NCBI GenBank assembly: GCA_024650045.1
Contig: JANKMU010000014.1
Coordinates: forward strand, 1 to 53,483
Length of the DNA: 53,483 nt
Direction: 5' to 3'
Source of the DNA: Mycoplasmatota bacterium
Lineage (GTDB): Bacteria > Bacillota_I > Bacilli_A > Acholeplasmatales > Acholeplasmataceae
The stretch's first letter is position 1. Every line of letters starts with the position of its first letter. Below, piece after piece: positions 30,857-35,131 of the stretch. The notes under the pieces were generated by a model. That model was not told the origin of the DNA. It saw only the letters and a list, made by a program, of their open reading frames with translations, and did no database searches. Position numbers and translations under genes: made by a program.

Positions 30857-30890
30857 CTTAATATACAATCGTAATGGTCATTTTATTGGT
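30857..30890 (-). promoter_or_regulatory. Predicted ECF-sigma promoter of the lipoprotein gene
   Basis: On the minus strand ACCAATAAAA is followed by TGTATATTAAG with a spacing identical to the promoter at 32536-32569; the two align without gaps over about 38 nt. The start codon is 30 nt further on, with AAGGAGG between. Confidence 0.7.
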
Positions 30891-30905
30891 AATATGTGAA
30901 TTTTT

Positions 30906-32012
30906 TTAAAAATCATATTGATTATCTGTTGATTCCGTGAGTCCAGGTCTTCCTGGAATGGTTCTATTTCTTTGAAGTATATAAGGAATACCTTGATCAG
31001 GTTTAACTAATATTGAGTAAACATTAGTACCTTGTAGTGAACTTATTCTAACCAATAGTTCTCCACTTTCATCAGTTTCGTCATCTTTTATTACATAACT
31101 AATCTTTAACATCTTTTGATTATCTTGACTTGTCATTGAAAACATATAAGTTCCGATAGACTCTCCAATATTAAAATGCATCTCTACATTTTTACCATCT
31201 TCAGTTTCTTCAATAATTAATGATACATCTTGTGTGATTTCACCTTGTTTCGTAATGATAATATCAAAATGGTATTTTTCATTAATTAACTGATATTCAA
31301 CATCAATATAATTTAAATCATCTTTACTCATTCTTAATGTTAATTCTTGATGATCATTTTCAATACCATTTCCGCTAAACTGATAGCTGACTTCACCGAT
31401 ATCGATTCTGCCATCAATAGAAAACTGATTTGTGTTTTGAATTCTATTTTGATTGTAATCCATTCTATATTGTATTTCTTGGTCTAATAAATCTCTTGCT
31501 TTAAAGCTCATACGTTTGCCATATTCAGATTGTGTTAAATCTTCTTTTTCTATATCAAAGTCAGAATGACTTGCAAGAAGTTTTTCCATAACTTCAAAAT
31601 ATTTAGCAACATCTGATATTTCTTCATTGATTTTTGGATCTGGTTGATTTGTAAATGGAGGTCCTGCCAATGTTTGATTTTCAGTTGTAGTAAGCTCATC
31701 TTCAGCAAGATCTATCAATGCTGATGTTGACATCGTTGAAAAAACTAAGACATTGTCCATACTTTCAAATTGAGGATCGGTAGGTATGATTGGTGTATTA
31801 GGTTGATAAAAGAGCATCAATAGAAATACAGTTGCTAATGCACCTAAAGCAAGCGTAAACATAGGCTTTAGACTCAAACGAGACTTATGCATGATAACTT
31901 GTTCTTGGCGTGGTAAATCTTTAACACGCTTTAGGATGTTATCAGAAAAATCTTTGATTTCTACTTCTTCAGCTTTAGATTTAATTAATTGTATTAAGTC
32001 TTTCTTTTTCAT
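30906..32012 (-). CDS. Single-pass membrane protein, probable anti-sigma factor
   Basis: 368 residues. A charged cytoplasmic stretch of about 49 residues (MKKKDLIQLIKSKAEEVEIK...) is followed by one transmembrane helix (about 50-69) and a roughly 300-residue extracytoplasmic region that looks beta-rich. This is the usual layout of an ECF anti-sigma factor, and the start overlaps the sigma stop by 4 nt (ATGA), as such pairs do. No known anti-sigma motif (for example the zinc HxxxCxxC) is visible, so the call rests on layout and context. The extracytoplasmic domain is not recognised. Confidence 0.7.
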   Translation of the reverse strand: MKKKDLIQLIKSKAEEVEIKDFSDNILKRVKDLPRQEQVIMHKSRLSLKPMFTLALGALATVFLLMLFYQPNTPIIPTDPQFESMDNVLVFSTMSTSALIDLAEDELTTTENQTLAGPPFTNQPDPKINEEISDVAKYFEVMEKLLASHSDFDIEKEDLTQSEYGKRMSFKARDLLDQEIQYRMDYNQNRIQNTNQFSIDGRIDIGEVSYQFSGNGIENDHQELTLRMSKDDLNYIDVEYQLINEKYHFDIIITKQGEITQDVSLIIEETEDGKNVEMHFNIGESIGTYMFSMTSQDNQKMLKISYVIKDDETDESGELLVRISSLQGTNVYSILVKPDQGIPYILQRNRTIPGRPGLTESTDNQYDF

Positions 32013-32521
32013 AGTATGTCACCTACCTTCGCTCTTAATTTTTTAATTGCTTTATTATAAATCCATAAGACAGTACCTAATGGCTTGTCCATGGTCTCTG
32101 CGATTTCTCTAAACTTTAAATCATTGATGATATGAAGTGTGACCACTTCTTTCTCATCTTGTTCTAATAGATCAAGAATTTTAAATATATCTTCTTGGTC
32201 TGTTTCTTCTTCAGGAGAAGGAATACTTTCGACAAGTTCTTGTGAATTAATAACCTTTTTCTCTCGATTGTACGTATTAATTGCTAAATTCCTAGCAATT
32301 GTCGATAAATATGCATAAGGATTTGATCCACTTTTATATTGTTCGATTTTCTCTAAGAACTTTACGTAGGTGTCTTGCATGATATCTTCTGCTAAGTCTT
32401 GGTCTTTTACAATATTAATGATGGCGTAAAAAACCTGATTCTTTGTCAAGTTGTAAAATGTATCAAATGACTGATAGTTCCTCTTTTTTAGTTCTTCAAT
32501 AATTGCATGTATCTGATCCAT
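32009..32521 (-). CDS. ECF-type sigma-70 family RNA polymerase sigma factor
   Basis: 170 residues: region 2 (QDLAEDIMQDTYVKFLEKI, about 38-58) and region 4 with a helix-turn-helix (KFREIAETMDKPLGTVLWIY), joined by an acidic linker; region 3 is absent, as in ECF factors. It would direct RNA polymerase to a special promoter set. It starts after AGGGGAATT. Its own upstream region carries the same long motif as the lipoprotein gene, so it is probably autoregulated. The three-gene unit forms a sigma/anti-sigma/lipoprotein envelope module. Confidence 0.9.
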   Translation of the reverse strand: MDQIHAIIEELKKRNYQSFDTFYNLTKNQVFYAIINIVKDQDLAEDIMQDTYVKFLEKIEQYKSGSNPYAYLSTIARNLAINTYNREKKVINSQELVESIPSPEEETDQEDIFKILDLLEQDEKEVVTLHIINDLKFREIAETMDKPLGTVLWIYNKAIKKLRAKVGDIL

Positions 32522-32535
32522 AATTCCCCTCTTCG

Positions 32536-32569
32536 CTTAATATACAAATGAATATGCCTTTTTATTGGT
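32536..32569 (-). promoter_or_regulatory. Predicted ECF-sigma promoter of the sigma operon
   Basis: The minus strand reads ACCAATAAAA and, 25 nt later, TGTATATTAAG followed by CGAA. It is the partner of the promoter at 30857-30890, with the same elements and spacing. The start codon of the sigma gene is 15 nt downstream of the motif. Confidence 0.7.
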
Positions 32570-32590: not shown

Positions 32591-32623
32591 AAAAGAAAAA
32601 TACCCTACAAGGTGTAGAGTATT
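32591..32623 (-). terminator. Terminator of leuS
   Basis: The minus-strand stem AATACTCTACA/TGTAGGGTATT (one G-U) with a CCT loop is followed by TTTTTC, 14 nt after the leuS stop. It insulates the sigma operon. Confidence 0.85.
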
Positions 32624-32636
32624 CAATCTTAATTGC

Positions 32637-35045
32637 TTAGTTGGCAACGATATTAACTAACTTGTTGGGTATATGTACGACTTTTCTAATTGTTAAGCCC
32701 TCAACATGTTTACTAACATTTGGAATTTCTATTGCCATTTTTTTAACTTCTTCTGGATTCATATCTATTTTTGCTGTAAATCTAGCTCTTAATTTACCAT
32801 TGACTTGAACAACGATTTCAACTTCATCTTGAATTAAGTACTTTTCATTAAATGTTGGCCAATCTGAATAAATGAGTTCTTCATTTTGTTTTAAGATAGC
32901 TTGGTTAATCTCTTCAGTCATATGTGGGCATATTGGATTAAGTAGTTTTAACAACCCTCTTGCTTGTTCTTTTCCGATGGTTTGTAGCTTATAAACATCA
33001 TTAACAAAAATCATCATTTGACTGATTGCTGTATTAAATGCTAATTTTTCATAATCTTCAGTAACTTTCTTAACGGTTTGGTGGTAGCTTTGTCTTAACG
33101 CTTTAACTTCCTCATCTTCAATCGGAAAGTCAAACATTCTCCAAACACGTTCTAAAAATTTCTTAGATCCATTTAAGCCTTCTTCAGACCAAGGTTTATC
33201 AGCATCTAGTGGACCCATAAACATTTCATATAGGCGTAGTGCATCTGCTCCATGTGATTCAAAAATCTCATCAGGATTGACACCATTACCTTTAGACTTG
33301 CTCATCTTAGAATGATCACTACCTAAGATCATCCCTTGATTAAATAGTTTCTTAAATGGTTCAACGGTTGATAATAAACCAATGTCATGTAAGAATTTCG
33401 TCCAAAAGCGTGAATATAACAAGTGACCTACAGCATGTTCTGTGCCACCTACATATAAATCTACAGGTAACCATTTATCTAATAACTTCTTCGCTTCATC
33501 TGTATCTAGTGGAATCATCCCTAAATGATGTTTTAAGATATAACCGATAAAATACCAGGAACTACCAGCAAGTTGTGGCATGGTGTTCGTATCTCTTCTA
33601 CCTTTAATACCTTTATAATCAACATGTAGCCAATCATGAGCGTTTGCTAATGGGCTCTCTCCAGTACCACTAGGACGAATGTTTTTTAGTTTAGGAAGTT
33701 CTAGTGGTAATTCATCATCTTCTAGGATGTAGATGTTATCATCTTCATCATAGATAACAGGAAATGGTTCTCCCCAATATCTTTGTCTTGAAAAGACCCA
33801 ATCTCTTAATCTATACGTGTTATGTGCATAACCTTGTTTTGTTTTTTCTAAGTAATCAATAATTTTTGCTTTTGCTTCATTATTAAATAAACCATCAATA
33901 ATACCACTATTGAAATGCTTACCATCACCAGTAAATGCACCTTCTGCATCACTTTGGACAACTTCTACGATATCTAAGCCATGCACTTGTGCAAACTCAA
34001 AGTCTCTTTCATCATGTGCAGGAACAGCCATAACCGCACCTGTTCCATAATGTGGTAACACATAATCAGCAATCCAAATCGGTACTTTTTTATGATTTAA
34101 TGGATTAATCGCGTAAGATCCAGTAAAGACACCAGTCTTTGACTTATCCATTGCACGATCCATTTCATTTTTTTGTTTGGTTTGTTCGATATATTGCTTA
34201 ACTTCTTTTAACTCATCTTCAGTCGTTACTGTTAAGACCAAAGGATGTTCAGGAGCTAATACACAATAGGTTGCTCCATAGATGGTATCAGGTCTTGTAG
34301 TAAAGACTTCAAATGATTCATCTGAGTCATCTACTTTGAAGTTCATCATTGCGCCATTGGATTTGCCAATCCAATTTCTTTGCATTTCTTTTAAGTATTC
34401 TGGCCAATCAAGTTCCTCTAAGTCTTCAAGTAGACGATCTGCATATGCAGTGATGCGTAGCACCCATTGACGCATTGCTTTTTTAACGACAGGATAGTTT
34501 CCTCTCTCAGAAACCATTTTACCGTCTAAAAGCTCAATTTCATCGTTTGCAAGCACGGTACCTAAGCCTTCACACCAGTTAACTTCTACATCTTTTAAAA
34601 CGGCTAAACCATGTTCATACATTTTTTTGAAAATCCATTGTGTCCACTTGAAATAATTAGAATCAGCGGTTGCGAATTCTCTATCCCAATCAATACCTTT
34701 ACCAGACTCAATAATTTGTTTTTTAAAATGTATAATATTTTGATAGGTAAATTCTCTAGGGTCTTTACCTGTTGATAATGCATATTGTTCTGCAGGCAGA
34801 CCAAAAGCATCCCATCCCATTGGATGAAGCACATTATAGCCTTGCATTCTTTTAAATCTAGAAGTAATGTCTGTTGCAGTGTATCCTTCTAAATGTCCTA
34901 CGTGCAGCCCACTTGCTGATGGATAAGGAAACATATCTAAAACATAGAACTTTTCCTTTAATCGATCTTCTTGTGTTTTGAACAATTTTTGTTCATACCA
35001 GTAGCTTTGCCATTTCTTTTCAATTTCTTTAAAGTTATAAACCAT
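32637..35045 (-). CDS. leuS: Leucyl-tRNA synthetase
   Basis: 802 residues from ATG 35045 (GAAGG upstream); the longer frame start lacks a site. Class I synthetase: the HIGH region appears as [20 protein letters not shown], followed by an editing CP1 insertion ([20 protein letters not shown]), then KMSKSKGNG, an anticodon-binding helical domain and a small C-terminal domain. No leader riboswitch is seen; a promoter lies 28 nt upstream. The synthetase serves tRNA-Leu species including that at 12977. Confidence 0.97.
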
Positions 35046-35073
35046 ATAAGTACCTTCTTTCAGTGCTATATCT

Positions 35074-35101
35074 ATTATATAAAAAAAAAGCATTTTTTCA
35101 A
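35074..35101 (-). promoter_or_regulatory. Promoter of leuS
   Basis: Minus-strand -35 TTGAAA (35101-35096), 16-bp spacer with a run of T, -10 TATAAT (35079-35074). It follows directly on the acpP terminator. Confidence 0.65.
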
Positions 35102-35131
35102 ACAAAAAAAGGGAATTTCGGTTCCCCTTTT
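35102..35131 (-). terminator. Terminator of acpP
   Basis: The stem AAAGGGGAA/TTCCCTTT (one bulged base) is followed by TTTTTTTG on the minus strand, 5 nt beyond the acpP stop. Confidence 0.8.

Follow-up and report, generated by a model that had tools for sequence, protein, structure and literature searches.

Do two matched stretches of a mollicute genome, one ahead of an ECF sigma factor gene and one ahead of the gene for an RsgI_M lipoprotein, represent promoters of one alternative sigma factor, as was predicted from the sequence, and which further genes would that factor control? Both lie on the minus strand of the window, the 53,483-nt stretch of DNA from a Mycoplasmatota bacterium (family Acholeplasmataceae) that was analysed here as a whole. 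The two sites are very probably promoters of the sigma factor encoded at 32009-32521, which would direct a small, autoregulated envelope-stress regulon. Autoregulated ECF regulons are a kind already known; one new part is the unusual -35 element together with a variant of the recognition helix.

Predicted promoter pair and operon layout

Upstream of both genes, a -35 block ACCAATAAAA is followed by 13 nt and a -10 block TGTATATTAAG (Table 1). The site of the sigma gene reads ACCAATAAAAAGGCATATTCATTTGTATATTAAG and ends 14 nt before the ATG (32521); the site of the lipoprotein gene reads ACCAATAAAATGACCATTACGATTGTATATTAAG and ends 30 nt before the ATG (30826). The plus-strand coordinates originally given for the shared blocks (32536/32561 and 30857/30882) are correct on direct reading. 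The two sites are identical in the -35 block (10/10) and the -10 block (11/11), and agree at 5 of the 13 spacer positions. With up to three mismatches allowed, the two-block pattern occurs at these two places only within the window, and none of 100 shuffles of the sequence produced two sites (mean 0.01). A scan with the sigma-A consensus found no TTGACA/TATAAT-type pair that reads as either window site.

The sigma and anti-sigma genes overlap, and a terminator-like hairpin between the upstream gene (32637-35105) and the sigma operon would insulate the operon.

Table 1. Features of the locus and of related sites elsewhere in the genome.
Feature	Position	Strand	Description
ECF sigma factor, 170 aa	32009..32521	-	Regions 2 and 4; recognition helix PLGTVLWIYNKAIKKL
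Anti-sigma factor, 368 aa	30906..32012	-	Assigned by position, topology and profile match to paralogous anti-sigma; overlaps sigma gene by 4 nt
RsgI_M lipoprotein (P0003), 347 aa	29783..30826	-	Lipobox Cys23; RsgI_M 9.4e-25; long coiled coil
Predicted ECF promoter, sigma/anti-sigma operon (exact site 1)	32536..32569	-	-35 ACCAATAAAA 32569-32560, 13-nt spacer, -10 TGTATATTAAG 32546-32536
Predicted ECF promoter, RsgI_M lipoprotein gene (exact site 2)	30857..30890	-	-35 ACCAATAAAA 30890-30881, -10 TGTATATTAAG 30867-30857
Terminator-like hairpin behind upstream gene	32598..32624	-	dG -12.9 kcal/mol, z -3.07
Exact site 3	C4		Before gene of secreted S8 subtilase, 835 aa, surface repeats
Exact site 4	C11		Before 339-aa lipoprotein gene, followed by paralogous sigma/anti-sigma pair
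Paralogous ECF factor	G000:C11:80483-80998

Sigma factor and anti-sigma factor

Pfam identifies Sigma70_r2 (1.7e-12, residues 24–89) and Sigma70_r4 (6.7e-8, residues 116–164) in the sigma protein, which also matches TIGR02937 (2e-21, 76.3 bits against a cut-off of 42.9). The protein thus has the build of a group IV (ECF) factor, with regions 2 and 4 only in a chain within the ~170-200 aa range. The adjacent gene encodes a membrane anti-sigma factor with a predicted transmembrane helix, an arrangement shared by the relatives, and the operon has its own predicted promoter with the two-block element common to the targets. ECF factors usually combine an AAC-type -35 element with a recognition helix bearing S/R, although this combination does not define the whole group. 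Here the -35 contains CCAATAAAA and the helix is of another type: where solved ECF factors read like GTVMSRLHRGRRQL, this family reads GTVLWIYNKAIKKL, with W in place of the usual S in 83 of 86 aligned rows and Y in all 86. Such an atypical, conserved helix would explain the unusual -35, and we infer that its W and Y contact CCAAT. The three rows without W form one sister clade (L145, L146, L147) in which the promoter motif is also absent, an association that covers these three sister loci only.

The anti-sigma factor consists of a short cytoplasmic part, one predicted transmembrane helix (about residues 50–68) and an all-beta extracytoplasmic domain. A Pfam/NCBIfam search of this protein gave no family match. 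Foldseek found no confident match to the fold of the ectodomain (best E 0.057), and the best VIA-align Z of 8.3, to Osh4/ORP lipid-transfer domains, is at a level that the tool rates as common.

Candidate regulon in the genome

The genome (1.89 Mb) is close to that of Peloplasma aerotolerans, the sigma proteins being 96% identical. The core motif ACCAATAAAA-N14-GTATA was searched genome-wide, as had been proposed for a check of enrichment, and gave four exact matches (0.04 expected from composition), none with one mismatch (1.5 expected) and 24 with two (26.7 expected). The two-mismatch matches are at background level and were excluded from regulon membership; the clean gap at one mismatch suggests a few true sites standing on background. 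A control pattern one base longer had no exact match. A start codon lies within about 40 nt of each of the four exact sites, which comprise the window pair and one site each on contigs C4 and C11 (Table 1). The subtilase behind the C4 site is the only S8 subtilase of the genome. Two matches with three mismatches were set aside: G000:C11:174859 seems to lie inside a coding sequence, and G000:C11:196816 has no gene start just downstream.

The motif therefore appears to mark a very small set of cell-surface genes, the regulator's own included, with three to four promoters. Genome enrichment, fixed spacing and surface-gene targets all support the proposal that the matched sites are promoters of one alternative sigma factor. 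The expectation that the motif would lead to the rest of a regulon held insofar as further sites were found; the regulon is tiny rather than large. Three of the four genomic sites fit a single factor, and the fourth probably belongs to a paralogous sigma sharing the -35.

The paralogous locus (L178:5309-8129, G000:C11:79308-82128) encodes a lipoprotein that is 40% identical to the ectodomain of the neighbouring anti-sigma factor; both proteins end in very acidic C-terminal tails. In congeners, the lipoprotein gene comes first, followed by sigma and anti-sigma, and is preceded by CCAATAAA-N15/16-GTTTATATAGTG. The promoter has a distinct -10, CGTTTATATAGTG, in most congeners; in this genome it reads CGTATATATAG behind the -35 ACCAATAAAA. 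On their promoter sequences, the -35 appears to be common to the two paralogous factors and the -10 to be different, so the C11 site (CGTATATATAG) is more likely the paralogue's own, and the sigma-specific regulon may comprise three promoters.

Conservation of the motif in relatives

In nearly all congeners, the orthologous sigma and lipoprotein genes retain the blocks upstream, while the spacers have diverged. When CCAATAAA..GTATA was counted in 20 congeneric genomes at spacings of 7 to 27, a spacing of 15 gave 56 matches, compared with about 3 at a typical other spacing (0–10 each); secondary peaks at 24 and 26 are partly due to variants of this element in which a later GTATA was counted. 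The reversed pattern had 3 matches in these genomes. Among ten genomes of the same order that encode no relative of this sigma factor, matches to the exact element were at control level (3 versus 2). Downstream genes at the extra congener sites recur: a subtilase (in several genomes), RsgI_M lipoproteins, a 170-aa membrane protein and a secreted DUF2202 protein.

The 170-aa protein has two helices and stands behind the motif in five congeners (L195:1645, L188:1277, L228:2588, L230:2530, L231:2289). A recurring element, CCAATAAAA-N-TGTAAGTTTAGTATA or TGTGAGTTTAGTATA, has the identical -35 spacing and a different -10 (G003:C27:16750, G004:C10:7168, G008:C24:31734, G007:C123:31419, G010:C58:2871); it may mark a further target or belong to a conserved coding sequence.

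Beyond the genus, 80 related loci from Mollicutes and Izemoplasma-like genomes were collected with the sigma protein as the only query. In 57 of them, CCAATAA-N16-GT[AT] (GTW) lies no more than 160 nt upstream of the sigma gene; these counts, like those over the 24 pairs below, are not independent because the loci are related by descent. Other spacings tested were found at 0–7 loci each, and random stretches of the same loci carry the motif in about 1%. At eight more loci the motif occurs in another place nearby, mostly ahead of the neighbouring lipoprotein gene; at 12 loci with the family-typical helix, no motif was found near the operon with the -10 definition used.

The -35 had been described as unlike TTGACA yet conserved, and this description holds: neither window site has a TTGACA-type partner, and the -35 is nearly constant across all lineages. 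The -10 drifts, reading TTGTATATTAAG in this genus, TTGTTTAAAG or TTGTTATAAAGG in rumen Acholeplasmatales, and TTGTATTA or TCGTATA in others. Information per column is 1.40/1.43 bits in the -35 block, 0.34/0.34 in the spacer and 0.85/0.89 in the -10 block. At 24 loci with both sites, the paired -10 elements are more alike than shuffled partners (identity 0.758 versus 0.632; 0 of 20,000 shuffles), whereas the paired spacers are not (0.407 versus 0.392), a statistic that ignores phylogeny, so that kinship inflates the counts and the spacer serves as an internal control only. Covariation of the -10 pairs between lineages, without that of the spacers, points to shared recognition rather than recent duplication, as expected if a single evolving sigma factor reads both sites.

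RsgI_M lipoprotein

The lipoprotein encoded beside the operon is the only RsgI_M protein of the genome. Its family has an invariant DINPS (columns I38, N39, P40 and S41 are invariant), and self-cleavage is predicted between N39 and P40. Family-profile position 41 (the Pro of DINPS, P40 here) aligns to residue 1 of five solved RsgI chains, the new N-terminus that self-cleavage creates in those proteins. The model superposes on B. subtilis RsgI (8t9n) with a Z of 13.8 and an rmsd of 2.4 over 107 residues. The profile, the invariant columns and this structural match together identify the autocleavage domain of the SigI/RsgI systems. Two other marks of those systems are absent from the locus: Pfam finds region 4 in the sigma factor where SigI has its own C-terminal domain, and P0003 starts with a lipoprotein signal rather than being a membrane protein that binds sigma through a cytoplasmic domain.

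The sigma gene of this family is followed, in Izemoplasma-type relatives, by one for a transmembrane anti-sigma factor that itself carries RsgI_M, a domain fusion that links the lipoprotein with this signalling route. In the Acholeplasma-type loci, the anti-sigma factor has an all-beta ectodomain in place of RsgI_M. At several of the Izemoplasma-type loci, a separate RsgI_M lipoprotein is also encoded immediately upstream, in most cases behind a CCAATAAAA promoter; the lipoprotein, the ECF sigma and the RsgI_M anti-sigma are consecutive at L104:4850-7333, L106:5011-7425, L130:5008-7394 and L135:1226-3549. To judge from these gene arrangements, RsgI_M is used by ECF factors and not by SigI alone, and the second new part is its occurrence as a detached lipoprotein instead of within the anti-sigma factor. 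A search of mainly open-access literature found a description neither of this promoter nor of an RsgI_M lipoprotein in ECF signalling. In one RsgI_M lipoprotein (L079:7681-8730), an insertion destroys DINPS, which reads VSPS; self-cleavage should be absent there, making this protein a natural test case.

Alternative readings of the two sites

The sites might instead be housekeeping sigma-A promoters, with TATATT as the -10 and CCAATAAAA as an upstream operator for another DNA-binding regulator. TATATT agrees with TATAAT at five of six positions, and an AT-rich genome eases such matches; however, a TTGACA-type partner is missing from both sites, and the letters that are invariant among relatives are the G and T of GT[AT], the rest varying (GTACA, GTATG, GTAGT, GTTTA, GTTAT). 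A single rigid spacing and the link of the motif to the sigma gene, in position as well as in occurrence, are also easier to reconcile with a sigma factor than with an operator, and we consider the sigma-A reading very improbable. That the sites are alike through recent duplication or gene conversion, with no functional meaning, is hardly credible: the genes do adjoin and the blocks are identical, but the window spacers share few positions, the spacer pairs of the 24 loci are no closer than shuffled partners, and the blocks persist in other families, in other orders and at unlinked genes.

Recognition by the paralogous ECF factor, besides or instead of the neighbouring one, deserves more weight but is still unlikely. 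The recognition helices of the two sigmas are alike, and the paralogue's own locus has the identical -35 and, in this genome, a similar -10. Against this, the distinct -10 of the paralogue's promoter in most congeners differs from the TTGTATATTAAG shared by the pair at the neighbouring locus, and motif and neighbouring sigma stand at one locus in many relatives. Control by the neighbouring sigma factor is thus the reading adopted here.

Proposed mechanism

Computation directly establishes the sites with their targets, their conservation at a fixed spacing and their covariation among lineages, and support for the promoter logic is good; sigma binding, autoregulation, the signal, the proteolysis and the feedback, with the roles of the lipoprotein and the subtilase, we infer as follows. 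RNA polymerase-bound sigma would recognise the -35 (A)CCAATAAAA and the -10 TGTATATTAAG at one fixed spacing and transcribe its own sigma/anti-sigma operon, a positive autoregulation in which the inhibitor would be co-made, as well as the adjacent RsgI_M lipoprotein gene and one surface subtilase gene elsewhere in the genome. Without a signal, sigma would be kept at the membrane by the single-pass anti-sigma factor. An envelope signal would act on the extracytoplasmic domain of the anti-sigma factor, and regulated proteolysis, a site-1 cut followed by RseP, would free sigma; an RseP-type M50 protease is encoded in the genome. The induced lipoprotein and subtilase would work on the outer side of the membrane, probably with feedback on sensing or repair.

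A more speculative extension, which we hold to be doubtful, makes the RsgI_M lipoprotein a detached self-cleaving co-sensor: the signal would strip its membrane stub or coiled-coil body from the fold and thereby open the anti-sigma ectodomain, in trans, to attack by the subtilase that sigma induces or by a different site-1 protease. An anti-sigma factor with a free, lipid-anchored relative of an anti-sigma ectodomain under the same sigma would then be a general design of the clade.

Comparison with known systems

Mollicutes are generally regarded as having little regulation. The ECF family and its promoter can be traced through Acholeplasma, Anaeroplasma and Izemoplasma relatives, and thus provide a usable motif for predicting regulons where genetic tools are few. 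Since the unusual -35 is coupled to an unusual, conserved recognition helix, the ECF specificity code becomes testable here.

The system resembles E. coli sigma-E/RseA and B. subtilis SigW, SigV and SigM in its two-domain sigma factor, the overlapping gene of a single-pass anti-sigma factor, a two-block promoter with autoregulation (here predicted), envelope targets and an RseP-type protease in the genome. It differs from them in the -35 (CCAATAAAA here, AAC-type there), in the recognition helix (W..Y here, S/R there) and in a regulon of only 3–4 promoters. In the SigI/RsgI systems of Bacillus and Clostridium, RsgI_M is a self-cleaving periplasmic domain with DINPS, and SigI promoters have an A-tract and CGWA (PMC10575876, PMC12203970). 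The present locus likewise has RsgI_M with DINPS and an A-rich run within the -35 region; its sigma, however, is an ECF factor with region 4 instead of a SigI with a SigI-C domain, its RsgI_M is on a lipoprotein without a sigma-binding domain, and its anti-sigma factor has another ectodomain. The RsgI autoproteolytic domain is thereby placed in ECF signalling twice, inside an anti-sigma factor and as a separate lipoprotein. Mycoplasma genitalium, too, is a mollicute with an alternative sigma factor (cited in PMC5138195). Putative alternative sigma factors of Mollicutes have been described as primarily species-specific (PMC5138195); in contrast, the sigma family described here is conserved together with its promoter across orders.
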